This document shows positions 1 through 29,624 of a stretch of 64,000 nucleotides of DNA, in pieces. The stretch is from a virus: IMG/VR virus record IMGVR_UViG_3300025137_000017, positions 1 to 64,000 of that record. The stretch is one strand, 5' to 3'. Under the pieces are notes generated by a model. It was not told where the DNA came from, did no database searches, and saw only the letters and a list, made by a program, of their open reading frames with translations. The translations under genes and the position numbers were made by a program. Position 1 is the first letter of the stretch; each line of letters begins with the position of its first letter.

Positions 1-18
1 CCTGCGGTTACACCCCAT

Positions 19-525
19 CTAATCATATCTTAAATCCTCAAATGCAAAATCATGTATTGCAATTCTAAATAATAGTCTATCTTTTTCAGGTGAACATACC
101 TGATGTTCAGCTTGTGTATTAAGTATTAACATCTTATTATACACAATATCTTCACATGAGTCAACCTTTAATACACCTGTATTTTCTGCTAAAGGATACA
201 GCATAGCTATTTTTGACTTGTGATCTACGTGTGGTGGCAAACTCCCGCCCGGCTTTGTTAGGAAGAAGTCACAACGAAAGTCCTGAGTTTTTATTCCCCA
301 ACGTTTAAATGTTTTAATTAAAAACTTTTTAAGTGACATATCATAATCGCTTATGTGCTTAACATATTGTTCCACAGGCATAGCATCAGTCATTGCGTCT
401 GTATATTCTTTATGATCACCATACAGTTCATTAATGTTTTCCCAATCCATTTGATCCATATAATGAGAAAAGAAATCTACATCGGGTACTACATCAGTTA
501 ATATATAATTAGTTGTTACTTCCAT
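19..525 (-). CDS. 2OG-Fe(II) oxygenase-like protein (168 aa)
   Basis: Probable double-stranded beta-helix dioxygenase. The iron-site pattern is visible: PPHVDHKSK gives the H-x-D pair at about residue 100, followed by a strand ending MLYPL. A distal His lies in NTQAEHQV, and the Arg in DRLLFRIAIHD would bind 2-oxoglutarate. This is the order expected of aspartyl/asparaginyl beta-hydroxylase-like folds. It is related in pattern to the protein at 39386-39880. Its ATG overlaps the end of the upstream gene by 17 bases, so it is the last gene of the minus-strand accessory operon visible here. The substrate is unknown; phage proteins of this kind could act on protein side chains, nucleotides or small molecules. 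Confident about the fold, not the reaction. Confidence 0.6.
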   Translation of the reverse strand: MEVTTNYILTDVVPDVDFFSHYMDQMDWENINELYGDHKEYTDAMTDAMPVEQYVKHISDYDMSLKKFLIKTFKRWGIKTQDFRCDFFLTKPGGSLPPHVDHKSKIAMLYPLAENTGVLKVDSCEDIVYNKMLILNTQAEHQVCSPEKDRLLFRIAIHDFAFEDLRYD

Positions 526-1099
526 TTTTTAATCCATGCCAGAATGGCGTTGTGTCGTGTTCTGTACTTAATCCAATGCTCTGCCAACATTCTGAATTGT
601 CTGGGTCAGGAGCACATAGATAAGGTCCACGTCTATATTCCCAGGCATTTATGCTTCTATCACTTAGTTCTGTAATAAACATTTCAAACTGTCTGGGAGC
701 TCTTACTTCTCTACTTATAAATTTGTATTTAAATCCCATGCTGTCACTAAATCCTATCTGTTGATCAATAGTGGCATGAGTTGCGGGTTGTAATAGTTTT
801 GTGCTTATCTGTGTTCTGTTTGCTGGTGCAATATAAAATCTATTTAATAGTCTAATACTCAGTTCTGGATAGAAGTCTCTCGCCCAGCCTGTTGAATAGC
901 CTGTAATTTTACCATCCTTCTTCCAAGTGGTAATAAATGAATACTTTGCCCAGTCCATATTGTCATAGTTTTTGCTTAGTCTATGTGCATCTTCAACTAC
1001 AAACTCTGTTAGTTCTTCAAGTAGAGCTGGTTGTTGATCACTAAAGAACGTACATACTCTGTCTGCTCTAGTATCGCCTATTATTTCTCTATCTATCAT
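509..1099 (-). CDS. Hypothetical protein, weakly GNAT-like (196 aa)
   Basis: Not firmly recognised. A stretch in the middle (KITGYSTGWARDFYP, then RLLNRFYIAPANRTQ) is reminiscent of the beta4-beta5 region of GNAT acyltransferases, where a strand is followed by a turn that binds the CoA pyrophosphate. The canonical R/Q-x-x-G-x-G/A is not clear, so this is only a suggestion. I chose the ATG at 1099 because it gives an ATGA overlap with the stop of the upstream methyltransferase, a junction repeated through this operon. A GTG twelve bases upstream (1111) would add four residues. It lies between a methyltransferase-like and an oxygenase-like gene, which fits a modifying-enzyme role but does not prove it. 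Confidence 0.5.
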   Translation of the reverse strand: MIDREIIGDTRADRVCTFFSDQQPALLEELTEFVVEDAHRLSKNYDNMDWAKYSFITTWKKDGKITGYSTGWARDFYPELSIRLLNRFYIAPANRTQISTKLLQPATHATIDQQIGFSDSMGFKYKFISREVRAPRQFEMFITELSDRSINAWEYRRGPYLCAPDPDNSECWQSIGLSTEHDTTPFWHGLKNGSNN

Positions 1100-1752
1100 A
1101 TTTTTAGGCACCTCTGTACGCCTAATGCTCCGTCAAAGTTCTCATTGATCTTTAGTACTTCAGCATTTAATTGTTTTGCTATATAGTCATCATCATAAAA
1201 CTGTAATACATATTCAGTATTGGGTGGATAACTGTCAACACCCATGTCTGTTTTTGAACAAGCAACAAATGTTCTGTTTCTATACATTAACATGTCTGCT
1301 AATTCTTCTGGGTTTGCAAAGTATTCCGGCCTATTGTTAAATATTTTAATTAGGCTGTCTCTGTCACTTGTTGACATAAAGGTTGCTAAAACTGTTGTTG
1401 CATGTTGCTTTAATTTTTTAATGGTTGTCTTAAATTCTTTTATACTTGTATGTGTAAACACACTATAAGCAAAGGCATAATCATATTCACCAAGCTCTGG
1501 CCAGTTCTCTTTAACAGCTTCATTTCTATATTGGTAATTAAACTTGTCCAGTAGTAGCCATGTATGTTGTGGATACTGTTTCTTATTTGCTTCTATTACT
1601 CGCTGTATGATATCTAGTCCAGTATATTCTCCAGCAAAGGGTTCGTAACGTAGAAAGTTTGCATGGTTACAACCATAATCCAGGATTCGAAGACCTGTTA
1701 AATCATCTGTATATGCTTCAAAGTAATCTCTTACTGGATATTCAATGTACAA
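1096..1752 (-). CDS. Class I SAM-dependent methyltransferase-like protein (218 aa)
   Basis: Rossmann-fold methyltransferase. Motif I is seen as ILDYGCNHANFLRY (residues about 23-36), motif II as the acidic end of a strand in YTGLDI, and motif IV/post-motif as YDYAFAYSVFTHT. In motif I the usual GxGxG is altered to GCNHAN, a form common in small-molecule and sugar methyltransferases. The start is uncertain: the frame opens with TTG at 1752, inside the last codons of the upstream gene, and there is no ATG before the motif I region. Translation is probably coupled to the gene upstream, whose stop is at 1742. The substrate is unknown; the neighbours suggest a sugar or lipid metabolite. Confidence 0.65.
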   Translation of the reverse strand: MYIEYPVRDYFEAYTDDLTGLRILDYGCNHANFLRYEPFAGEYTGLDIIQRVIEANKKQYPQHTWLLLDKFNYQYRNEAVKENWPELGEYDYAFAYSVFTHTSIKEFKTTIKKLKQHATTVLATFMSTSDRDSLIKIFNNRPEYFANPEELADMLMYRNRTFVACSKTDMGVDSYPPNTEYVLQFYDDDYIAKQLNAEVLKINENFDGALGVQRCLKI

Positions 1753-2452
1753 TATCTTGTTGTCCGTTTAAACTAATGATTAAATGTATTCTACCTTCAG
1801 TACCGTTATTCTCTGCCCAATGTCTCATACCAGTATTTAAAAACCAGCATGTGCCGTCAGCAGGAAAATGCCTACGGATTATGTTGCCTTCATAATCATA
1901 TGCACATAGATAACTATCAGGGTTTGTTATGATTGGTATGTGTACACGGATACTATAGGTTGTATTATAATCTATATGTGGTTTGATCTCATATTGGGGA
2001 GCCAGAAATGCGAAGCGTGTTCTAGTAATGGGTGCTTTAAAACTGTCCAGTATTGTATTCCAATAACCCGTACATATGTCTTTACGTTTGGTATAGTTGC
2101 GTTCATCCAGTATGGGATTATAATTTTTACTTGACTTTATTGCTGAAGTCTTATATGTTGCCATACTTGTGCTTGTGGGTTTTACATCACTAGCATCACC
2201 ATTATATTCAGTTAGACTTAATTGTCTATAGAAGTCACTAGCACCTTTGCCCTGTTCATCTTTATGAATAAACTTATTTAAATGAAACTCTTTCTCTTTA
2301 CCTAACTGTAGATAGCTGGCATCTGGGTTATTATAATTTAAATCCTGATAGGTAGTTGTATCCTGAAACTGTTCAAATGCAGAAAGTATTTTATCCATGT
2401 CGAACTTATACGGCAGTTGCATGTATGCAGGTAACTGTTTTCTGTCTAACAT
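1742..2452 (-). CDS. Aspartyl/asparaginyl beta-hydroxylase-like oxygenase (236 aa)
   Basis: 2-oxoglutarate/Fe(II) oxygenase family. The C-terminal half carries KPHIDYNTTYSIRVHIPI (H-x-D iron ligands and the conserved R-x-H strand), then CWFLNTGMRHWAENNG, where the distal His follows the W-x-x-N pattern typical of Asp/Asn hydroxylases, then GRIHLIISLNG with the 2OG-binding Arg. The N-terminal 90 residues are unrecognised. The ATG at 2452 has an AAGGA ribosome site and sits two bases from the end of the desaturase gene, so they are co-transcribed. Known members of the family hydroxylate peptide side chains or free metabolites. The target here is unknown. Confidence 0.7.
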   Translation of the reverse strand: MLDRKQLPAYMQLPYKFDMDKILSAFEQFQDTTTYQDLNYNNPDASYLQLGKEKEFHLNKFIHKDEQGKGASDFYRQLSLTEYNGDASDVKPTSTSMATYKTSAIKSSKNYNPILDERNYTKRKDICTGYWNTILDSFKAPITRTRFAFLAPQYEIKPHIDYNTTYSIRVHIPIITNPDSYLCAYDYEGNIIRRHFPADGTCWFLNTGMRHWAENNGTEGRIHLIISLNGQQDIVH

Positions 2453-2454
2453 AT

Positions 2455-3102
2455 CTAATCCTTGAGTTTAGTAACTAGGTTGTTATTAGCAAGGGTTTCC
2501 AATACAAATCCAGTTAGATCCCACTTATGAAAGCGGAAGTTTTTTCCATTATGATGTTCGTCATGCCAACCTTCGCCGGCACTCAGTAAGTTAACAAGTG
2601 GAAAGTTACGGCTTACACCGTTCTTGTGACATACTGCGTTAATTAATCCAAAGCCTATTGGTGCAAGTATTGCCGGCATTAGTACCCATGCTACAAATAC
2701 GTTTACACTTATTATAGCACTAACGATAGCACTTGTCAACCATATTTTTCCCCAATGGTTATGGAAAAATACCATACGAGGATTTTTAAATAAATCTTTT
2801 GAATACTTGGGTGGAAAACTTTTTACTGACCATAGACTTAAAAATACTGTCCAGAATCCTTTATACTTGGGTGAGTGAGGATCTAGATCACTATCGCTAT
2901 GGTGATGATGCATACGGTGTGCAGAAATCCAACCTATTGGGCTTCTACTTCCGGCTAGGACTGCAAAGTATAGGGTAATGATCTCAAAAAATGCGTTAGC
3001 ATTAAATGATTTATGAGCCCAGTATCTATGTAAGCCTGCACTGATGCCGACATGAGCGATAACTTGATACCACAAGAAACCGATCAATAAAGTTATTTCC
3101 AT
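2455..3102 (-). CDS. Membrane fatty-acid (acyl-CoA/acyl-lipid) desaturase (215 aa)
   Basis: Di-iron membrane desaturase that introduces a double bond into an acyl chain. All three His boxes are visible: HRYWAH at 25-30, HRMHHHH at 62-68 and HDEHH at 179-183 (in GEGWHDEHHNGK, normally GEGWHNxHH). Two hydrophobic segments (about 36-60 and 121-156) separate the boxes, as in delta-9 desaturases. At 215 residues it is shorter than most cellular enzymes, mainly at the ends, but the catalytic core looks whole. The ATG at 3102 follows an AAGGA site. It needs ferredoxin or a similar electron donor, which would be the host's. In a phage it could alter membrane fluidity or the acyl chain of a modified lipid; this role is inferred. 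Confidence 0.88.
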   Translation of the reverse strand: MEITLLIGFLWYQVIAHVGISAGLHRYWAHKSFNANAFFEIITLYFAVLAGSRSPIGWISAHRMHHHHSDSDLDPHSPKYKGFWTVFLSLWSVKSFPPKYSKDLFKNPRMVFFHNHWGKIWLTSAIVSAIISVNVFVAWVLMPAILAPIGFGLINAVCHKNGVSRNFPLVNLLSAGEGWHDEHHNGKNFRFHKWDLTGFVLETLANNNLVTKLKD

Positions 3103-3114
3103 TGTCTATCCTTT

Positions 3115-3378
3115 TTAGTCTGTTACGCCATCATGATCACTACCGATCCATGTGACTGTTACGCCAGCATGAGCAGTGAAATGAGCGTCTTTTGCCGCCT
3201 CATTTTCATAAACTATAACACGAGTTACTGATGCACCGTCGTCTGCCAGAGTTAATGAGCCAGTTGTTACTGTATCATAATTAGTTCCGCATGGTCCATG
3301 TTCTGCAATCCATTCGTTTACAGTCGTATATGTGTTAGAGTTTTTGCTTGTTAATTTACTTGTAAATGTATAAGCCAT
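3115..3378 (-). CDS. Hypothetical protein (87 aa)
   Basis: Not recognised. It is a small, Thr-rich soluble protein with no signal peptide or membrane segment. The sequence alternates short strands (ASVTRVIVYENEAA, AGVTVTWIG) and looks like an all-beta or alpha/beta single domain. It has its own strong ribosome site (AAGGAGAG) and a late-promoter-like CATAAATAT motif immediately upstream at 3397-3405, so it may be expressed separately from, and more strongly than, the enzymes on either side. A small abundant late protein is plausible; function unknown. Confidence 0.6.
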   Translation of the reverse strand: MAYTFTSKLTSKNSNTYTTVNEWIAEHGPCGTNYDTVTTGSLTLADDGASVTRVIVYENEAAKDAHFTAHAGVTVTWIGSDHDGVTD

Positions 3379-3393
3379 AGTTATCTCTCCTTT

Positions 3394-3406
3394 ATTATAT
3401 TTATGC
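3394..3406 (-). promoter_or_regulatory. T4-late-promoter-like motif (CATAAATAT)
   Basis: The minus strand reads GCATAAATATAAT here, close to the T4 late consensus TATAAATA recognised by gp55-RNA polymerase. It ends 16 bases before the ATG at 3378, leaving room for the AAGGAGAG ribosome site. Confidence 0.5.
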
Positions 3407-4449
3407 TATCTAAAGTATCTCTCTAATTCTTCTGAATTTCTTTTAACATTATATGCTTCTGCTGTTGGAAATGGGTTTGAGAAGTCAAAGTCGTTAATTA
3501 GTATTCTATTTGTTGTGTTAATACCTGAAATTAGTCTATAATCTGTAAATCCCAAGTCCAGCAATACTGCGTTTGTTTCAACATCATATGCACTTGGACG
3601 GGCTGTAGTAAAGATAAACTGTGCTCCTAGTGCCTGTTGTTCAAGCAGAGTTGCTACATTTGAATGCAATATTTCTGGAGGTGTACCGAATTTATTCTTA
3701 CCATAGCGACTCTGATTACGAATCAATACTCCGTCAATATCACAGAACAATACTGGATGTCGTCTGTTAAACATAATCCAATCTGATATTGTGCCTACAT
3801 CTTCAAAGTCTTTTGTGTGTACTACTTCAAATATTTCACCATCAGCTATCATTGAATCAATAACGTTGCTTAAATATATTTCCTGAGTGGGCTTTGCTAA
3901 CAGTTTATCGGCAGTTCTTAGGAAAGCATCACAATCTCTAAATTGATATCCTCCCACACTAAACAGATTACTTACTACTTGTTTCTCAATCACACTTTGT
4001 ATAATGCCATTTGTATCTGCTTTAACATAACTCTTACCTGCAACATTATATAGATTTGGATAGTCGTTTAGCCTACCAACTGCTACGCCATTACATTCTG
4101 TTATGGGTTTTTCAAACTTAATAAACGTATCACAGTCTTTAATATACACAGGTCCTGTAATGTTTAATTGTTGAATAGCCTGTTGCGTTGTTTGTGTAGG
4201 ACCATTTGTTGCTTGTTCTAATATTAAAACATTTACATTGGGTAGAGCTTCTGCTAGAAAAACATCTGCTTGATATTCTGTACAATGTTCACGTAGAATT
4301 ACAACGGTGATTTGTTTTGGATCAACACTATCAAAACATTCAATACAATGTTCAATCATTAGTCTATGATCATAAGCGGTTAGTAAATATTTGGGTCTCG
4401 TATTGGGGAATCTACTGCTTTGCCCAGCTGCCAATATAATAATATTCAT
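3406..4449 (-). CDS. Sugar/choline-type nucleotidyltransferase fused to HAD-family phosphatase (347 aa)
   Basis: Two domains. Residues 1 to about 230 are an NTP-transferase: the start MNIIILAAGQSSRFP followed by RPKYLL is the LAAG-x-x-x-R...PK nucleotide-binding signature, and KDCDTF supplies the metal-binding D-x-D. Residues about 233-347 are HAD-like: FCDIDGVL (motif I, D-x-D), TTARP (motif II Thr) and INDFD (motif IV region). The transferase would activate a phospho-sugar or phosphocholine; the HAD domain would act on a phosphorylated intermediate. I start at 4449, not the in-frame ATG at 4488, because 4449 begins exactly at the domain and forms an ATGA overlap with the kinase gene. That pairing resembles LicA/LicC or AmgK/MurU. 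Substrate inferred only. Confidence 0.8.
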   Translation of the reverse strand: MNIIILAAGQSSRFPNTRPKYLLTAYDHRLMIEHCIECFDSVDPKQITVVILREHCTEYQADVFLAEALPNVNVLILEQATNGPTQTTQQAIQQLNITGPVYIKDCDTFIKFEKPITECNGVAVGRLNDYPNLYNVAGKSYVKADTNGIIQSVIEKQVVSNLFSVGGYQFRDCDAFLRTADKLLAKPTQEIYLSNVIDSMIADGEIFEVVHTKDFEDVGTISDWIMFNRRHPVLFCDIDGVLIRNQSRYGKNKFGTPPEILHSNVATLLEQQALGAQFIFTTARPSAYDVETNAVLLDLGFTDYRLISGINTTNRILINDFDFSNPFPTAEAYNVKRNSEELERYFR

Positions 4450-5183
4450 TTGTTTCTCCATAGTATTTCCATTTGATTTGCTAACCACGAGCGATCTTGT
4501 TTAGTTGAATAGGGCCAAACTCTCAACAAACAAAGTATTGCCATGGCATTGTTATCATAATACTCACAATGTTCACTAAGTGATTGTTGTATGCTTAATA
4601 ATCTATTACTTAATAGTACATTGCTTTCTCGTAAAAACCAACCACAATCAATATCCTGTCTAAGTTTGCTTATGTCAAAATGTACATTATCCAAGTCAAT
4701 ATCAACAGCATCTATTAATACAAAGCGATTGTTATTATAATCATATAATATATTGTTACAAGTTAAATCACCGTGATATACAGTCTTGGGTAAGTGTCGG
4801 GGCAACTCGTCCATTAGGTTATCAATACTGGTTGGTAACCACTCTGCAGAACTTAGCCGCCTTTCATATACACTTGTATAATCTCCCACGCCTGTAGGTA
4901 AACGTACGAACTTATCGTAAACTGTTTTAATAAAACGAGTTAATTGTTTGTGTTCACCGTTAATTAAATAATGCTGTATATCTTGATTATGTATATACTC
5001 CATTGTTATAGTATCGTCCGTGTATTCCAGTATCTCTGGTTGATCAACTATACCAGTTAAACTGGTAATACGATTATAGTTGCGTTCAATACCTATGCCA
5101 CTCTTTTCCACAACAGTACCTAATTTATTTTTAACTAGGTTAACAGTTGCACCCGAGTGTCCTATAAATTGCTTGATAATCAT
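4446..5183 (-). CDS. APH/choline-kinase-fold small-molecule kinase (245 aa)
   Basis: Aminoglycoside-phosphotransferase/choline-kinase fold. The catalytic loop is VYHGDLTCNNILYD (residues about 136-149: His-Gly-Asp with Asn for metal) and the DFG-equivalent is LIDAVDIDLD, followed by FDISKLRQD, a helix typical of LicA, AmgK and homoserine kinase-type enzymes. The N-terminal lobe is compact, with VVEKSG giving the likely ATP-binding Lys and MEYI the hinge. Members phosphorylate hydroxyls of choline, sugars or amino sugars. Translation is coupled at both ends: ATGA with the downstream nucleotidyltransferase and a one-base TAATG junction with the upstream gene. The kinase and nucleotidyltransferase probably work in sequence to make an activated head group. 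Confidence 0.78.
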   Translation of the reverse strand: MIIKQFIGHSGATVNLVKNKLGTVVEKSGIGIERNYNRITSLTGIVDQPEILEYTDDTITMEYIHNQDIQHYLINGEHKQLTRFIKTVYDKFVRLPTGVGDYTSVYERRLSSAEWLPTSIDNLMDELPRHLPKTVYHGDLTCNNILYDYNNNRFVLIDAVDIDLDNVHFDISKLRQDIDCGWFLRESNVLLSNRLLSIQQSLSEHCEYYDNNAMAILCLLRVWPYSTKQDRSWLANQMEILWRNK

Positions 5184-6055
5184 TATAGACCCGGATGATT
5201 ATCAACATAAAACTTAATATGTTTCTTTGCTGTAGTTGGATCCATTACATCTAGGGTTAGATCTGATTCCGGACGGACTGGTCCTACATCTAATCCTGAC
5301 AGTTGTTTCATTAGAGTATTGGTACGCTTCATTGCATTAAACAACATAACGTTTGGTCCTATAAATTGTTGTGATTCATTCATATCTGTATCGCTTCTAT
5401 AACTGTCTATTAGATACTGGCTTAGGTTTGCTGACATCATATCAATACTGTAACTGTCTCCACCGAACCAAAAGTCTCCAGTACCCCAGGAACCATCCTC
5501 TTCCCAGAACTTTGAAAACCAAGCCCAGTATGTTACTTCATTAATAATTCCGTATTCTTTTATTATCTTTTCAATGGGTGTAAATGGTATTGTTACTATA
5601 TCAAATCTTTGACATATGCATAAGTCATAACGTATGCCCGTTTCTAATTCATGCTGTTGTTTTAAATTAACTACTGATACAAGTCCCAATAGTAAAGGCT
5701 TACCAAAATTCCATTGAATTAAACTGTTGTTGTTTTTATGTTGAGGTTCATCCTCAACTAAAGTCATGCCCGAAAGTTTTGGATTATATATAGCCGTCAG
5801 CTGATTCAGTTCATCTGTGTTGATAACACCTGTTTGTTCCTGATATGTCTTTCCAATAAACTGTCCAACAGTATTGGTTTCTTTTGTCCAAAAGAAATAA
5901 TCTACATTTACTATACAGGGTTGTACTTTGCCATTAATATTAATGTTTATAGTTTTGCCGTCAACGTAGTCATATGCTGCCTTGACGGCTGGAGCACAAT
6001 ACAGTCCAGTTCTTATCTGTCCGAATAGACATACTGCAATGTTAATCTGTTTCAT
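5183..6055 (-). CDS. Putative glycosyltransferase-like protein (290 aa)
   Basis: Begins INIAVCLFGQIRTG, resembling the first strand and loop (CLSGQxR) of a family of bacterial and phage surface-polysaccharide proteins that are probably glycosyltransferases. Further along are CICQRFDIV (an R-x-D acidic motif after a strand) and GTGDFWFGG, which also fits a GT-A-like fold. No certain catalytic residue assignment. I place the start at the ATG at 6055, where it forms an ATGA overlap with the stop of the upstream gene; the longer frame to 6106 adds 17 residues lying inside that gene. It is followed by the kinase-nucleotidyltransferase pair. Confidence 0.55.
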   Translation of the reverse strand: MKQINIAVCLFGQIRTGLYCAPAVKAAYDYVDGKTINININGKVQPCIVNVDYFFWTKETNTVGQFIGKTYQEQTGVINTDELNQLTAIYNPKLSGMTLVEDEPQHKNNNSLIQWNFGKPLLLGLVSVVNLKQQHELETGIRYDLCICQRFDIVTIPFTPIEKIIKEYGIINEVTYWAWFSKFWEEDGSWGTGDFWFGGDSYSIDMMSANLSQYLIDSYRSDTDMNESQQFIGPNVMLFNAMKRTNTLMKQLSGLDVGPVRPESDLTLDVMDPTTAKKHIKFYVDNHPGL

Positions 6056-6648
6056 GTGTTCAATTTCCTTAAACGTAATCCCAATAGACGTAGCCATCTC
6101 CACCATGTGCTTCTGGGTCCGGATAATTCATATAACATACCAATGGGTTGGTTCTGACGTTTCCATAATAAACTTATTTTATCAAAATTATGTGGGCGAG
6201 TAATAAAGAAATTAAATCCTATTTGTGCTTTTCTGTCGTCTTTTACTGCCAAGTAGGCTTTGTCGTCAATAGCATCCAATCCCATAAATGGATTTACACT
6301 AGGCAGACCTTTTAAACTATAGCCATTATAATATACAACACAATCAAATCGGTTGGGTGTTAGCAAATCAAGCCCAAGTCTTGAGTTACTTGCAACATTC
6401 ATTGCATATGTCATTTGCTTGAATGGTCTAAAACTGTCCGGTTCTGTTGGTTGTTCCCAAGTGTGTACTAGTGCATCGCCATCTACATTCCAAAATTGTT
6501 TAACATCTAAAGTATCTCTAGCATGATCACTTGCTGGTTTACCATCCAATAGATGTGTTAGATAATAGGTAACATCAGCTTCTTCACACCATTCAAGTAC
6601 TGGTACAATGCCTTCTGCTGATCCCTGATAAACAATATGTATGTGCAT
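6052..6648 (-). CDS. Hypothetical protein in glycan-modification operon (198 aa)
   Basis: Not firmly recognised. It begins MHIHIVYQGSAEGIVPVLEW like a Rossmann-type enzyme, and contains FDCVVYYNGYSL and GFNFFITRPHNFDKISLLWKRQ, which recall the middle of GT-A-type transferases that lack an obvious DxD. The C-terminus is basic and Trp/Leu/Arg-rich (WWRWLRLLGLRLRK), possibly an amphipathic membrane-binding helix. It starts one base after the ThyX stop and ends in an ATGA overlap with the next putative transferase, so it belongs to the same translationally coupled set. A role in modifying a surface glycan or lipid is inferred from position. Confidence 0.5.
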   Translation of the reverse strand: MHIHIVYQGSAEGIVPVLEWCEEADVTYYLTHLLDGKPASDHARDTLDVKQFWNVDGDALVHTWEQPTEPDSFRPFKQMTYAMNVASNSRLGLDLLTPNRFDCVVYYNGYSLKGLPSVNPFMGLDAIDDKAYLAVKDDRKAQIGFNFFITRPHNFDKISLLWKRQNQPIGMLYELSGPRSTWWRWLRLLGLRLRKLNT

Positions 6649-6649
6649 G

Positions 6650-7318
6650 TTAGCCTAGAGTTTTTGCAAGTGGAAAGATTTCTGCAATGACTTTACTACA
6701 AGCATGTGCAATTTCCATGTGTTCTTTTTGTGTACCATTAGCACCACGTAGTTCAATGTAGTGAACCCAACTACGAATACTACCCTGCATGTATAGGGTA
6801 GTCTTTGTTAGACCTTCCGGTAATACTTTACGAGCCTGTTCTTTAGCAATACCTTTTTTAATTGCCCAGTCATATTCTTTCTTGGCCCAATGTGCAATAC
6901 GCATTTGTGCATGTAGCCAATCCAGTTGTAGTTTATTATCTTCAACATCAATACTATTTTGTCTATTTTTGGGATCTTGCAAACGTGCTTCTGAAAATTC
7001 AAACATATCGCCTTGTTCTTCTGGATTAGCATAACGCTGACTAAACTCCTGGAAAGCAAAACTTCTGTGTCTAACAACTTGGTGTGCAATGTCACGAGTT
7101 GTCTTAATTTCAAGTGTAGCATTAACCATTTCAAGTGGTGACCAGTGTTGATGTTTAATTAGATATTTAATTAAACGTTCACTTGTCTCTGTATTAATTT
7201 GTGCGGCTGGGTTTGAAACTTTTGCACAAAAGGCTATAAGCTCTTGTAGATCTGTTAAACCCTCTGCATTAAAATCGTCTGTTGCTTTTGAATACGCTAC
7301 TAATCTTACTTGTGTCAT
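6650..7318 (-). CDS. thyX: Flavin-dependent thymidylate synthase ThyX (222 aa)
   Basis: Converts dUMP to dTMP using methylenetetrahydrofolate and FAD/NADPH. The family signature RHR-x7-S is present as RHRSFAFQEFSQRY at residues 83-96. The later Ser/Arg region (YMQGSIRSWVHYIELR) and RGANGTQKEHMEIA match the C-terminal dUMP and FAD-binding motif. The length is normal for the family. The ATG at 7318 follows an AGGAG site. ThyX is a common nucleotide-metabolism gene of marine T4-like phages and supports genome replication. It is unusual here only in lying between glycosyltransferase-like genes and not in a replication cluster. Confidence 0.95.
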   Translation of the reverse strand: MTQVRLVAYSKATDDFNAEGLTDLQELIAFCAKVSNPAAQINTETSERLIKYLIKHQHWSPLEMVNATLEIKTTRDIAHQVVRHRSFAFQEFSQRYANPEEQGDMFEFSEARLQDPKNRQNSIDVEDNKLQLDWLHAQMRIAHWAKKEYDWAIKKGIAKEQARKVLPEGLTKTTLYMQGSIRSWVHYIELRGANGTQKEHMEIAHACSKVIAEIFPLAKTLG

Positions 7319-7323
7319 TTATT

Positions 7324-7509
7324 TTATCTCCTAAACATTTTCTTAGCCATTGCTAAAGGGTTCTTTAATCCTTCGTATGTCTCATTTATAAAGTCAACAT
7401 GTTGACCAAACTTGGATAATAATTCTTGTTGTTGAATTTCTATTTTATCTAAACGTAGTTGAATTATTTCTAACTTATCTAGTATTGTTGTTAGTTCTTT
7501 ATCTTCCAT
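7324..7509 (-). CDS. Small coiled-coil protein (61 aa)
   Basis: Unrecognised. Residues about 5-35 form a charged heptad helix (LTTILDKLEIIQLRLDKIE), so it probably oligomerises. The tail (NPLAMAKKMFRR) is basic and could be an amphipathic anchor. Its ATG shares one base with the stop of the upstream glycosyltransferase (TAATG) and it ends six bases before ThyX, so it is a real member of the operon. It may be a small adaptor for the neighbouring enzymes; no evidence for a specific function. Confidence 0.6.
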   Translation of the reverse strand: MEDKELTTILDKLEIIQLRLDKIEIQQQELLSKFGQHVDFINETYEGLKNPLAMAKKMFRR

Positions 7510-8495
7510 TATTTTTCTAATTTATCCTCTACTTGATCTTCTCTGATTTGTGCACCTAATCGGCTTGGGTTAATATATACAGTCTTAAAGAATTCACTTC
7601 CTTCTATACCTATATCAGCAATTTCTAAATCTAGTTTTCTACGAATATCAGTACCTAGTTCTAGTGTTGCTTGTTTAAGTAATTTACTATCCCAACGTTG
7701 TCCAGTCCTAGGACATAATTGATCTTCTGTTCCTATAAATTTAGGAGCAATATCTGTTTCGAACATTTTAGTTAGGTAACGGAAGTCTCTGACATTACGC
7801 CAATCCCATTCGTTACGAGTAATGTTTGTCATATGGCAACCCAGTCTAGCACCGTATATTGCCCACAGTCCATTATCAGTATCTTCTCCGACAGTCATCC
7901 ATGTTAACAAACGTTGATAATTCTTTTTGTGTACGTTCTTAATAGCTTCCTGTGGAACAACATCACCATCGATAAGTCCCATCTTAACACCTTCCCTAAA
8001 GCCTGCACGCCAGGCCTGTAGTGGTGATCCGTTATTCATAACATCACAATATATATTATTCATTTGTACATAGTTGATGTTCCAACAAAAATCCACTTGG
8101 GCTCTCTTGTCGCCTTCCGGTGCGTTCTCATGTGTCTTCATTCCATATACTACACGTTTAGACCAACATTTAATTCCACCATTGCCGTATACTAATCCGT
8201 TAATAATATTTTTACCAGCCCAACTAATAACGTCCATCTCTCCAATGGCATCCATGTCTACATCTACACTAAAGAATGCAGGATCAACAATATTATCTGC
8301 GTCAATAGTAATAAACCGATCTGTTTCTGCTAGATCAGCCGCCGCCTTATGTGCGGCATCACTACCAAATACTCCATGACTACGTTTAGCCCATGGACAT
8401 TTGTCCAATAGGTCTGCATAATTTTCATCTGCGTTTGGTTCATCAAAACTAATAAAAACAATATCAAATTCATTGATACTAATATTGTTGGGCAT
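7509..8495 (-). CDS. GT-A-type glycosyltransferase-like protein (328 aa)
   Basis: Opens with a strand FDIVFISFDEPNADENYADLL, as in family 2-like transferases, then RFITIDADNIVDPAFF, in which DADN is the metal-nucleotide D-x-D at about residues 64-67. GNGGIKCWSK and WAGKNIINGLVYGNGG resemble acceptor-side motifs. The C-terminal third is less clear. Homologues of this organisation are commonly annotated as glycosyltransferases in marine T4-like phages. The ATG at 8495 follows a TAGGAGAG site and the gene overlaps the end of the upstream gene by 17 bases. The donor and acceptor are unknown; phage glycans or host surface sugars are the possibilities. Confidence 0.65.
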   Translation of the reverse strand: MPNNISINEFDIVFISFDEPNADENYADLLDKCPWAKRSHGVFGSDAAHKAAADLAETDRFITIDADNIVDPAFFSVDVDMDAIGEMDVISWAGKNIINGLVYGNGGIKCWSKRVVYGMKTHENAPEGDKRAQVDFCWNINYVQMNNIYCDVMNNGSPLQAWRAGFREGVKMGLIDGDVVPQEAIKNVHKKNYQRLLTWMTVGEDTDNGLWAIYGARLGCHMTNITRNEWDWRNVRDFRYLTKMFETDIAPKFIGTEDQLCPRTGQRWDSKLLKQATLELGTDIRRKLDLEIADIGIEGSEFFKTVYINPSRLGAQIREDQVEDKLEK

Positions 8496-9471
8496 CTGTC
8501 TCTCCTACATAATTTACTGATAATGTATTACTCTTGTATACGATTAGTGGCTTTTCAGGCCATTTAAATTTAGTTTCTATATCTATATCTATAACTTCTC
8601 TTAGTTTGTCTCCCGGCACACCAATGGCACCAATAGGTTTGTCTATATGTCCATCACAAACTAAGAACATAATTTTATTAACACTTGATGTGGCGTAGCT
8701 AGTATCTTTTGTTGTTCTATTTAAAATCTTTACGCCACCTTCTGATCTTACTATAGTTAAATGTGGTTCCACATCATTAAATGATACTGTTTGTAATAAG
8801 CGATCAGTAACAAAATGCCTGTTGGGATTGTGACTAACATTATAATATTCAATACCGTAACTGGTAAACATTGGCCTTGTAAAAAAACTAACGTTATCCC
8901 AATCAATATCTTTTTCAATAGTAAACCTAATTTGCCGTTCTTTAATCAATGTTATGGGATCTATCTCTATAACATGCAATAATCTGTCCGGATTATGTTT
9001 GGCACATATGTAAAAATTAACTAGTGAACTATCACTACTACTTATATTACTAATTTCTCCAATATTTAGACTGCGTTGAATATGTAGGATATTTGCTTTT
9101 ATTTCTACTGTGTTTGTATCTTTGAATACGTTAATATATATGTCGTTGTTATTGGGATTTTTACCTGTAACTTTTAATATACTAATACCACGATCTTGAA
9201 TATGTAGTGTAGTAGTTTCAGTAGCGGGTTCCCATTCTTCTCGTACAACATCATAAACCATTCGTACCCATTTTTTAGGAAGTGTACGTTTAATAATTTG
9301 TCCTATTAGATCATTACCTGTGGACGTGATACCAATATCTTCCTGATACTCATCGGGCTTTGGAATTTTTCTTGCAGATACTTTTAAAATAATACCATTG
9401 ATCTTATTAAACTTGACCCACCACTTGGAGTCGTGTTTAGTTAGATATTCTAAATGTTGTTCGCTGTGCAT
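8479..9471 (-). CDS. Hypothetical protein (330 aa)
   Basis: Not recognised. A soluble, largely beta protein rich in Ile, Thr and Asn, with alternating strands throughout and no signal peptide, membrane helix or catalytic motif I can name. It lies between two glycosyltransferase-like genes, overlapping the end of the upstream one by 35 bases and the start of the downstream one by 17. The start is taken as the ATG at 9471; a TTG immediately before it is in frame. It could be a virion-associated or carbohydrate-binding protein, but this is a guess from composition only. Confidence 0.5.
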   Translation of the reverse strand: MHSEQHLEYLTKHDSKWWVKFNKINGIILKVSARKIPKPDEYQEDIGITSTGNDLIGQIIKRTLPKKWVRMVYDVVREEWEPATETTTLHIQDRGISILKVTGKNPNNNDIYINVFKDTNTVEIKANILHIQRSLNIGEISNISSSDSSLVNFYICAKHNPDRLLHVIEIDPITLIKERQIRFTIEKDIDWDNVSFFTRPMFTSYGIEYYNVSHNPNRHFVTDRLLQTVSFNDVEPHLTIVRSEGGVKILNRTTKDTSYATSSVNKIMFLVCDGHIDKPIGAIGVPGDKLREVIDIDIETKFKWPEKPLIVYKSNTLSVNYVGETDAQQY

Positions 9472-10282
9472 CAAATATTTCTTCTGTTAAGAACTCAGAT
9501 TCTTTGTATGCTAATAAATCATTAACCACATAGTTCTGAATCTTTACTTCTCCGTGGTCTCCTGGCCATACGTTTATGTAACTTGTCCATTGTTCATGTG
9601 ACCTACTTAGATAGTACTGAATTATATCCATGTCTGTATAGGAAAGTATCTCTTTATCCAATGGTGTTACTTTTTCAATTATATCCAGGAAGCGAACAAC
9701 AATAGTATGGAATATATTATTGTCGTATATGTCAGGAATATATTGTTCTTCAATTATTTCAAGTAGTGTGTCTCTGTTATTTTTTATTAGTGGATCAGCA
9801 AGTTTAAAATAATCTAATGCTAGATCACTCTTATCGAAATACATAAAGTCTGTATACACACCTTTTAACATGTACTTGCCATAAAATGCATAACGAGGAT
9901 CTTCAAACTGCATAACTTCGCCTCTGAAGTTTTTTATTTGTGTTGGTAAACATATACTATGATGTTCTATACAGTAATCAAATACATTTGTCATATCTCT
10001 TTGTACTAGTGTATAGGGTGATAACATTATAGTATATTCATAAGGTGTTGCCCACCAGGCCTGCCAAGTATGTTGATCCCATCTTGGAGCATCACTACCA
10101 AATGGATATTCAATAACATCATCAAATGGTTCTGCATAATCTTCACTAATAAAATTAACTATACTATCCACAACCATTGTAACACTTGCATTTGGATTAT
10201 TATTTTTAATACTGTATGCACTTGCACAGGCGGCTCTTTGATCAGCTGGTGTTTTTGTTAATATTAGATAGCCCTGGTTCAT
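9437..10282 (-). CDS. Glycosyltransferase-like protein (281 aa)
   Basis: Begins MNQGYLILTKTPADQR and continues with a Rossmann-like strand (ASVTMVVDS). APRWDQHTWQAWWATPYEYTIMLSPYTL then parallels the 'SPYEQTLLLDIDYM' segment of the next gene, placing the D-x-D region at TIMLSPY, where the acidic pair is not conserved. It therefore looks like a diverged paralogue of the upstream transferase. I start at 10282 because this gives an ATGA overlap with the upstream stop. The longer frame to 10339 adds residues inside the neighbouring gene. Confidence 0.55.
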   Translation of the reverse strand: MNQGYLILTKTPADQRAACASAYSIKNNNPNASVTMVVDSIVNFISEDYAEPFDDVIEYPFGSDAPRWDQHTWQAWWATPYEYTIMLSPYTLVQRDMTNVFDYCIEHHSICLPTQIKNFRGEVMQFEDPRYAFYGKYMLKGVYTDFMYFDKSDLALDYFKLADPLIKNNRDTLLEIIEEQYIPDIYDNNIFHTIVVRFLDIIEKVTPLDKEILSYTDMDIIQYYLSRSHEQWTSYINVWPGDHGEVKIQNYVVNDLLAYKESEFLTEEIFDAQRTTFRISN

Positions 10283-11160
10283 GTATTGGTCTCCCAGATT
10301 TGTTTTGCATGTCTGGATAATGCACGTTTGTTCATGCAATGCAAGTCTTGATCTGTTATTTTAACAACAATGTTCTGCCATTGTTTTTCTGTGTCATTTG
10401 CTAACATAATCCATTCGTTATCTCTAACCTCTACTATGTCATCCTTCTGATCCATATTAATTAAACTAGCCGGAAAACTATTAATACTATCTCCAGGTGT
10501 CATTCCATTTAGGATATGTACTGCTATACTGACACAGTAGTCTGTTCTAAATAATCTACCGGGGAAGTTATATAGGTATTGATAAAAATCATAATTGTCT
10601 GCAACGTGAGCCCATAAATCAAAGAATAACTTTGATATATCTGTTCTATCAAAATATACAACAGTTGACCACCACATGGGGATACCAGCATCGAAAAGGA
10701 ATCTTTCTCTTGATCCGGGTAGTTCACTTCTTAGATTAACTGCATTATTAAACATACAAACACCTTCATAATGATCTAGACTATGTAGTAGATTATCACT
10801 ACGGATCATATAGTCAATATCAAGTAATAGTGTCTGCTCATAAGGACTATACTCCCAGATTTTATGTTTGTTGTTATTAAAGAAAGGAGCATTAAAACTA
10901 CTCCAGGGAGAGTCCCAATGTTTTCTGTGATTGGGTTTTAGTTCATCATCTGTAATAACTATGTTGTCAATAAACTTTTTAGCCTGAGCTACTCCTCCAT
11001 GGTTTTGGTTCAACCAGTTGTATGTACCAGCATCTGTAATTACTGTTACCGGTAGATTCAGATGTCGTTTAGACTGTGCCGCCGCAAGAATAGCCAGTTC
11101 TATATAATCAATTGCTTCGTTATTGTATGCAAAGAAACATACGCCCTTAGTTTCAGCCAT
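10279..11160 (-). CDS. GT-A-type glycosyltransferase-like protein (293 aa)
   Basis: A nucleotide-sugar transferase fold: an N-terminal CFFAYNNEAIDYIELAILAA followed by a strand LPVTVITDAG, then YSPYEQTLLLDIDYMIRSD containing the D-x-D (LDIDYM, about residues 113-118). PMWWSTVVYFDRTD lies near the acceptor site. The pattern matches the family-8-like transferases frequent in cyanophage and pelagiphage genomes. The ATG at 11160 shares bases with the preceding stop (TAATG). It is followed by a related gene at 9437-10282, suggesting duplication. Substrate unknown. Confidence 0.65.
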   Translation of the reverse strand: MAETKGVCFFAYNNEAIDYIELAILAAAQSKRHLNLPVTVITDAGTYNWLNQNHGGVAQAKKFIDNIVITDDELKPNHRKHWDSPWSSFNAPFFNNNKHKIWEYSPYEQTLLLDIDYMIRSDNLLHSLDHYEGVCMFNNAVNLRSELPGSRERFLFDAGIPMWWSTVVYFDRTDISKLFFDLWAHVADNYDFYQYLYNFPGRLFRTDYCVSIAVHILNGMTPGDSINSFPASLINMDQKDDIVEVRDNEWIMLANDTEKQWQNIVVKITDQDLHCMNKRALSRHAKQIWETNT

Positions 11161-11507
11161 TACCAGTCCATAAGTTTTGTTACTGTACGTTGTTTTTTAA
11201 TTTTAATGTATTCAGCGTTCAGTTCATTGGTGGCACTAAAGTAAGCACTTGTTAGATTATCTAATAGGTTTTTAATATCATTAACTTCAACTGGATTATC
11301 TTTTGTATCAATAAGTATTGCACTTTTGTTACCTAGATCAATTAAAGTTTTTACAAAGCTGATAGTGGCTTCATCAGCAAAAAACACACCATTGTTATGA
11401 TGTACTATTCTCAGCTGGTTTATTCTGTTCTTGATGTTTTTCTTTTGATTAGTAATAGTCAAACTATAGTTGGAAAACTCAAGAGCTTTCTGTAGACGTT
11501 CGTCCAT
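11160..11507 (-). CDS. Hypothetical helical protein (115 aa)
   Basis: Not recognised. Helix-rich, with a basic N-terminal third (ITNQKKNIKNRINQLR), a short beta segment (GVFFADEATISFVKTLIDLGNKSAILIDTKDNP) and a long C-terminal helix (SATNELNAEYIKIKKQRTVTKLMDW). It has a good AAGGAG ribosome site and its own late-type promoter motif at 11536-11546. It is therefore the first gene of the left-hand accessory operon after the tail module and may be made late. It might be a chaperone or virion accessory protein; nothing decides this. Confidence 0.55.
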   Translation of the reverse strand: MDERLQKALEFSNYSLTITNQKKNIKNRINQLRIVHHNNGVFFADEATISFVKTLIDLGNKSAILIDTKDNPVEVNDIKNLLDNLTSAYFSATNELNAEYIKIKKQRTVTKLMDW

Positions 11508-11546: not shown

Positions 11547-11585
11547 TAATTATATGCTATGTTTATGAGGATGTCAAGTAGTCTT

Positions 11586-29063: not shown

Positions 29064-29624
29064 CTAATTTTGTACAGTTATAACTAAACTTTTATCAACA
29101 GACACCAGTTCTTCAGGCCAAAACAGAAAATCACGCCAGGATTCGTCTGGAATATATAATCTAAACAATTTTGCATTGCGATTTATGTCATGATAGCTAG
29201 GTTGATAAGGAATTGATATAGGTTGTTGTAGCTTGTTGGACTTTTTACTGTTACATGGCCTACATGCACTAGCACAATTTGTCCAGGATGTTCGGCCTCC
29301 GTGGCTTTTTGGGATAACGTGATCTATTGTTAAATCGCCTTGCCGGTGTTTTGTGCCACAGTACTGACAAGTATAGTTATCTCTTATAAACATGTTTCGC
29401 CTGGTGAATTTTGCTCTCGTTGGTAATTTATGGTAACGATTAAGCATTACAATACTTGGCATTGGCATTATAAAGTTCTCACTATGCAGGTGTTGATCCT
29501 CATAGCTCTTTACTATTTTTATCTTATCGGAAAAATATGCTTTGACGGCACTTTGCCAACTAATTGTGCTTAATGGTAATATGCTTAAAGGTTGTGCGTC
29601 TGCATTAAGTAATAATACACTCAT
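29064..29624 (-). CDS. HNH endonuclease (186 aa)
   Basis: HNH nuclease of the CxxC zinc-ribbon class: C86-x-x-C89 (TCQYCGT), D101-H102 with VIPKS-x-GG, N116 and C121-x-x-C124-N (CRPCN). These give the beta-beta-alpha-metal fold, with His102 as the likely general base. The N-terminal 80 residues (VLLLNADAQPLSILPLSTISWQSAVKAYF) are typical of standalone bacterial and phage HNH proteins of this subgroup. Inserted between gp25 and the lysozyme-like gene inside the baseplate operon, it may be a freestanding homing-type nuclease or have a packaging/host-DNA role. An ATAAATATT motif lies three bases before its ATG. Confidence 0.88.
   Translation of the reverse strand: MSVLLLNADAQPLSILPLSTISWQSAVKAYFSDKIKIVKSYEDQHLHSENFIMPMPSIVMLNRYHKLPTRAKFTRRNMFIRDNYTCQYCGTKHRQGDLTIDHVIPKSHGGRTSWTNCASACRPCNSKKSNKLQQPISIPYQPSYHDINRNAKLFRLYIPDESWRDFLFWPEELVSVDKSLVITVQN

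Follow-up and report, generated by a model that had tools for sequence, protein, structure and literature searches.

The window, i.e., the whole stretch of DNA analyzed, corresponds to the initial 64 kb of a virus contig 135,611 bp long. Its carrier is an uncultured marine T4-like phage, for which a nucleotide search found no near relatives among isolates. The nearest terminase relatives (50-56% identity) belong to PA5oct-like phages (Arenbergviridae), Sinorhizobium phage Phosso, and Agrobacterium phage Atu_ph07, with PA5oct-like phages as the best matches at 55%, and the SbcC-like protein is nearest to the same phages (45-49%). Baseplate-type genes lie upstream of an enzyme operon. As the initial annotation had described, the operon is a one-strand array of overlapping genes: between positions 19 and 11160 every ORF is intact and on the minus strand, and from u115 to ox1 most adjacent genes overlap by a few bases and the others are 0-27 nt apart. 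The only larger gap in the operon, 78 nt, separates vs401 from u115. All 15 genes tested (window versus L003/L005) have dN/dS values of 0.10-0.30, i.e., are under purifying selection, and are therefore maintained genes. By simple hydropathy, the desaturase is the only protein of the unit with transmembrane stretches. An HNH endonuclease gene (29064-29624; PHROG 16726, 4e-37) lies within the baseplate operon.

The region consists of a fixed core (7509-11507) and exchangeable cargo behind it, with the following features:

11549-11577, minus strand: sigma70-type promoter, TTGACA-17-TATAAT (12/12 match), 41 nt before u115
11160-11507, minus strand: u115, first core gene, small protein, kept in all 44 loci with a median identity of 57%
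10279-11160, minus strand: GT293, GT8-like glycosyltransferase, DxD invariant in a 34-member alignment
9437-10339, minus strand: GT300, GT8-like, DxD lost in this clade, probable start at Met 10282 by relatives
8479-9474, minus strand: u331, fast-evolving multi-domain protein, tandem beta-sandwiches predicted
7509-8495, minus strand: GT328, GT-A glycosyltransferase-like, invariant D-A-D
7324-7509, minus strand: small ORF of 61 aa between GT328 and ThyX
6650-7318, minus strand: ThyX, flavin-dependent thymidylate synthase (PF02511, 2.7e-41), nucleotide cargo
6052-6648, minus strand: GT198, putative glycosyltransferase-like protein, 46% relative in the same order in L075, no family match
5183-6055, minus strand: GT307, putative glycosyltransferase-like protein, start 6055 by comparison with L075, no family match
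4446-5183, minus strand: APH-fold small-molecule kinase (PF01636, 7e-7) with HGDxxxxN and LIDA motifs
3406-4461, minus strand: nucleotidyltransferase-HAD fusion, NTHAD (NTP_transf_3 PF12804, 2e-8; PF00483; PHROG 3980, 3e-25)
3115-3378, minus strand: sm87, small protein conserved in L003 and L063
2455-3102, minus strand: membrane desaturase of the acyl-CoA delta9 type (FA_desaturase PF00487, 3e-9)
1742-2452, minus strand: 2OG oxygenase of the AspH/LpxO superfamily (Asp_Arg_Hydrox PF05118, 9e-13; beta-hydroxylase profile match, 2e-9)
1096-1752, minus strand: SAM methyltransferase, MT (PF08242, 4e-7)
509-1111, minus strand: u2, weakly GNAT-like acyltransferase, conserved order
19-525, minus strand: ox1, second 2OG-oxygenase-like protein, HxD...H...R, no family match

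The family matches support the enzyme classes that the initial annotation had assigned to the oxygenases, the methyltransferase, the desaturase, the nucleotidyltransferase-HAD fusion, and the APH kinase, with ox1 supported by motif only; ThyX and the GNAT-like protein were missing from its list. It had also called the whole an accessory operon, but four of these genes form, together with u115, a core conserved in this phage group.

A search with GT293 returned 44 viral contigs. About 44 contigs of marine viruses share the core order u115-GT293-GT300-u331-GT328 at the same site behind tail genes, which bears out the proposed location beside these genes. Contigs that are long enough there read giant - tail210 - tail307 - vs401 - u115 - GT293 - GT300 - (u331) - GT328, and in five contigs the u331 slot is without a match. 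Searches of 50,697 phage records with GT293 and GT328, the two core proteins queried, yielded no relative of either. GT293 and GT300 are paralogues (hhalign 98%), and the start Met 10282 gives GT300 an ATGA overlap. The GT300 profile matches glycogenin, a GT8 enzyme, at 3e-4, and GT293 is assigned as GT8-like from the relation of its sequence to GT300. The DxD motif of GT300 is present in 12 members and lost in 18, including the window, which has LSPY at that place; the glycosyltransferase class proposed earlier for these proteins is upheld, except that GT300 lacks the motif in this clade. The GT300 alignment A3 splits cleanly into DxD and no-DxD members, which suggests that one clade has a pseudo-glycosyltransferase as partner. 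Among the core proteins, conservation is highest for GT328 (68-78% identity, 27 members) and lowest for u331 (17-32%). GT328 has no Pfam or PHROG match, and a PDB sequence search with GT293, GT328, and ox1 gave no useful match. The GT328 model resembles GT-A enzymes, is nearest, weakly, to those of GT2 type, and has a weak likeness to the peptide S-glycosyltransferase SunS and the Che8 glycosyltransferase. Overall, the core glycosyltransferases look to be of GT-A/GT8 type. The AF2 model of u331 (pLDDT 79) has FN3-like Foldseek matches with low TM. A virion-protein identity of u331 was not adopted, the fold being only suggestive (query TM no higher than 0.23).

The promoter sits in the 78-nt gap upstream of u115, the sole sizeable gap of the operon, and shuffled sequence gives a chance expectation of 0.02 such sites per 14.4 kb. 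The best match reached 11-12/12 in 31 of 35 distinct loci, compared with at most 10/12 in the control regions before GT293, GT328, u331, vs401, and tail307. The core thus has its own sigma70-type promoter and is therefore more than a continuation of the tail operon, so that of the proposed attachment to that operon the adjacency stands. TTGACA/TATAAT also precedes other genes in the genome, e.g., at 76624, 92901, and 93940, and the late-type TATAAATA precedes structural genes elsewhere (53704, 58381, and 77356). Judging by its sequence, from which we infer both activity and timing, the promoter could allow early expression by the host polymerase. Close to u115, 29 of 37 loci have a late-like octamer (7-8/8), versus 28% of shuffles, an enrichment that makes dual early and late expression possible; read-through from the tail genes or late expression of the unit is also possible. 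A second 12/12 match within the desaturase gene (2739) was discarded as a promoter; it is kept only in the near relatives L003 and L063 and may therefore be a coding coincidence.

ThyX occupies the same place after GT328 in L008-L010 and L028 and is clearly a nucleotide-metabolism cargo, unrelated to surface chemistry. In L075, GT198-GT307-APH-NTHAD have kept their order, located after a radical SAM-like gene and before genes for a UDP-sugar dehydrogenase and a cytidylyltransferase, and the APH/NTHAD pair recurs inside a sugar cluster in L004. GT307 is 51% identical to its relative in L075 and 28-29% identical to those in L024/L027; the start Met 6055, supported by comparison with relatives, gives an ATGA overlap. 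Relatives likewise make Met 4461 the probable start of NTHAD. Four relatives conserve the HGD motif of the kinase, and four conserve the LAAGxSSRFP, DCD, and DIDGV motifs of NTHAD, which carries a HAD-like domain at its C-terminus.

Behind NTHAD, the window carries sm87-desaturase-AspH-MT-u2-ox1. The desaturase has three invariant His boxes (HxxxxH/HxxHH/HxxHH) and its profile matches SCD1 at 3e-13. H99, D101, and H158 of ox1 as well as several Arg residues are invariant in 8 relatives. PF00583 was matched by two u2 relatives at 0.012-0.024, below the cut-off. Besides the near relative L003, the loci L063, L064-L066, L067, L069/L071, L070, and L072 also have desaturase-(MT)-AspH-u2-ox1; MT is absent from some of these loci and lies ahead of AspH in others. 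Eleven contigs with the desaturase cassette were tested for GT328 relatives, and 4 encode one. An identity of the AspH-type protein as the lipid A hydroxylase LpxO was rejected (NCBIfam NF033391, 16.8 bits versus a cut-off of 500). The desaturase-family, PF05118, methyltransferase, and GNAT enzymes resemble the combination OlsE/OlsC/OlsG/OlsB. Given the closeness of the desaturase to SCD1 and the weak GNAT match, an ornithine-lipid modification set was retained as no more than a lead. By eye, a small ORF at G000 131057-131329 resembles sm87. The contig end truncates the operon in the window, and it continues in L003, where, as in L063, a carbamoyltransferase gene and CsgF/CsgG follow the cassette. 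The continuation in L003 (5874-12397) encodes a NodU-type carbamoyltransferase, a kinase, a cytidylyltransferase, CsgF, CsgG, a curlin-repeat-like protein (by eye), and a FecR protein; a csgG gene was looked for in the phage's own contig and not found.

The cargo behind the core is swapped from virus to virus, and in most relatives it includes radical SAM/SPASM enzymes. In related loci, 54 of the 112 proteins encoded behind GT328 are radical SAM proteins, 17 of the 112 carry SPASM, and others are UDP-sugar dehydrogenases, epimerases, GDP-mannose dehydratases, cytidylyltransferases, and mannose-isomerase-type cupins; some relatives carry ThyA and DHFR at the same insertion site. The window has none of the radical SAM, ThyA, DHFR, or sugar-nucleotide cargo of its relatives behind GT328, and the sole radical SAM match of the phage genome, at 84978, is weak. 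The ORF at G000 96829-97230 appears SufE-like (iron-sulfur assembly) by eye and may fit the radical SAM-rich relatives. GT328 relatives were also found in Bdellovibrionales and Bacteriovoracaceae-type MAGs. Like the phage loci, Bacteriovoracaceae/Halobacteriovoraceae MAG clusters (L058 and L059) combine a GT328 homologue and several genes for radical SAM/SPASM enzymes, with up to 65% identity between radical SAM genes of the two groups, and, in L059, with envelope-type glycosyltransferases; GT2 and O-mannosyltransferase-like genes accompany the Bacteriovoracales GT328 relatives. These clusters differ in being bacterial contigs in which no tail genes or GT293/GT300 were seen.

Pelagimyophages carry GT8 enzymes (their commonest glycosyltransferase family), radical SAM cassettes, and, elsewhere in their genomes, curli genes (PMC7029224). 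Curli genes are also present in methylophage Melnitz (PMC9004378), and a T4-like marine genome has 12 radical SAM genes (PMC5332604). The island resembles the host recognition cluster of pelagimyophages and cyanomyophages (PMC7029224), which lies between VrlC and gp14 and is likewise a hypervariable island in the structural region with glycosyltransferases and LPS-type surface-sugar genes, and shares with it marine T4-like carriers, tail-gene neighbors, and radical SAM cassettes (here in relatives). In contrast, our carrier's terminase and SbcC-like protein are nearest to Arenbergviridae, Phosso, and Atu_ph07 and not to pelagimyophages, and the island has a fixed glycosyltransferase core with its own conserved promoter in which GT293 and GT328 have no isolate relative. 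Pelagibacter phage Mosig EXVC030M (MT647606, Kyanoviridae) also carries a fatty acid desaturase (47% identical), AspH (25%), a methylase, and a GNAT protein in an island that adjoins tail-fiber genes and includes TauD; unlike here, gene order is rearranged, an aminotransferase, a reductase, and a peroxiredoxin are added, and the core glycosyltransferase profiles gave no match. In Phosso, as in relatives of our phage, radical SAM genes occupy this site behind giant-tail210-tail307 homologues, and no homologue of the glycosyltransferase core was found; PA5oct has no radical SAM genes behind the tail genes at that site.

The chemistry classes of the island enzymes are well supported. From here on we infer expression timing, substrates, a joint pathway, target, and benefit. 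Our preferred reading, on which our judgement is evenly balanced, is that the island is an early-expressed surface-glycoconjugate module that acts most likely on the host envelope. The core would be transcribed early by the host polymerase from its own sigma70-type promoter. The APH kinase would phosphorylate a sugar or alcohol, NTHAD would turn the product into an NDP-activated building block, and GT198/GT307 together with the core glycosyltransferases would transfer it. The desaturase, the two 2OG oxygenases, MT, and the GNAT-like protein would modify that surface molecule at its acyl, amine, or hydroxyl groups. The probable product would be an altered host envelope glycolipid or glycan that blocks adsorption of competing or progeny phages. 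In favor of this reading are the core synteny, the conserved promoter as opposed to the late-type sites before structural genes, the GT8/GT-A assignments, the intact catalytic motifs, the radical SAM and sugar-nucleotide cargo of relatives, the sugar-gene neighbors of the APH/NTHAD pair, the conserved order of the desaturase cassette and its rearranged counterpart in Mosig, the bacterial GT328 clusters, and the dN/dS values. Several points speak against it: the DxD of GT300 is gone here, the AspH-type protein falls below the LpxO cut-off, the octamer and possible read-through would allow late expression, different enzymes of the set might belong to different pathways, and simple hydropathy of the operon genes found no flippase, polymerase, or membrane glycosyltransferase in the unit, whereas a Gtr-type O-antigen conversion cassette has both a membrane flippase and a membrane glycosyltransferase. 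Three features lead us to rank host-envelope remodeling ahead of virion decoration, which comes second: the promoter of early type, the lipid-type enzymes, and the envelope context in bacteria.

Virion decoration, in which the glycosyltransferases and cargo would modify the phage's own tail or fiber protein and thereby change host range or shield the particle, appears rather unlikely. It would suit the fixed place of the unit directly behind the tail genes, the fast-evolving beta-sandwich protein u331 between the glycosyltransferases, the weak likeness of GT328 to SunS and the Che8 enzyme, and the late-like octamers near the promoter, and it has a precedent in phage-encoded glycosyltransferases suggested to glycosylate the capsid of a mycobacteriophage (PMC11256854). 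However, the conserved promoter is of sigma70 and not of late type, a protein is a poor substrate for a desaturase and a lipid-type oxygenase, and GT328 relatives reside in bacterial envelope clusters.

Doubtful, too, is the view that the island holds two or more unrelated cargos, with sugar activation, lipid desaturation, and ThyX having nothing but an insertion site in common. ThyX does belong to nucleotide metabolism, ThyA with DHFR or radical SAM genes occupy the site in relatives, and each of the two cassettes, sugar (3406-6648) and lipid-type (19-3378), is also found separately from the other. Against this, the cassettes keep their internal order across 38-65% identity, L067/L068 join the core to a lipid-type cassette in the order of the window, and a similar functional set recurs beside the fibers of Mosig. 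Co-occurrence had been set beforehand as the test of the annotated grouping, and the desaturase cassette, the APH/NTHAD pair, and the glycosyltransferase core each stay together.

Glycosylation of phage DNA, a frequent role of phage glycosyltransferases and one that ThyX within the unit might suit, is highly improbable and was rejected, since no PF00303 protein (thymidylate synthase/dCMP hydroxymethylase family) is present in the genome, where controls were found (the contig may be incomplete), the glycosyltransferases look GT-A/GT8 whereas the T4 DNA glucosyltransferases are GT-B, and relatives carry no DNA-base cargo beyond ThyA/DHFR/ThyX.

The analysis resolves a loosely defined hypervariable island into two components, exchangeable cassettes and a fixed core whose promoter is conserved and of early type. 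Whether phage glycosyltransferases target the host surface or the virion is a long-standing question, which expression timing and a small defined gene set now make testable. A link also emerges between marine phage cargo and bacterial radical-SAM/envelope-glycan clusters. More speculatively, and with a low probability in our view, GT328 and radical SAM/SPASM proteins may represent an undescribed modification pathway of marine T4-like phages and predatory Bacteriovoracales-type bacteria, anchored in the phages by the fixed core with its conserved promoter and degenerating GT8 partner, and making a modified glycan or glycopeptide of a kind that no phage is known to produce.

Further GT328-like genes were seen elsewhere. 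A Rhodospirillales MAG contig (L056:1968-6079) contains three of them in tandem. Two more glycosyltransferase-like ORFs lie outside the window, behind plus-strand fiber-like genes (G000 69228-70972, L049:5228-6972), and part of one of these shows 30% similarity to GT328.
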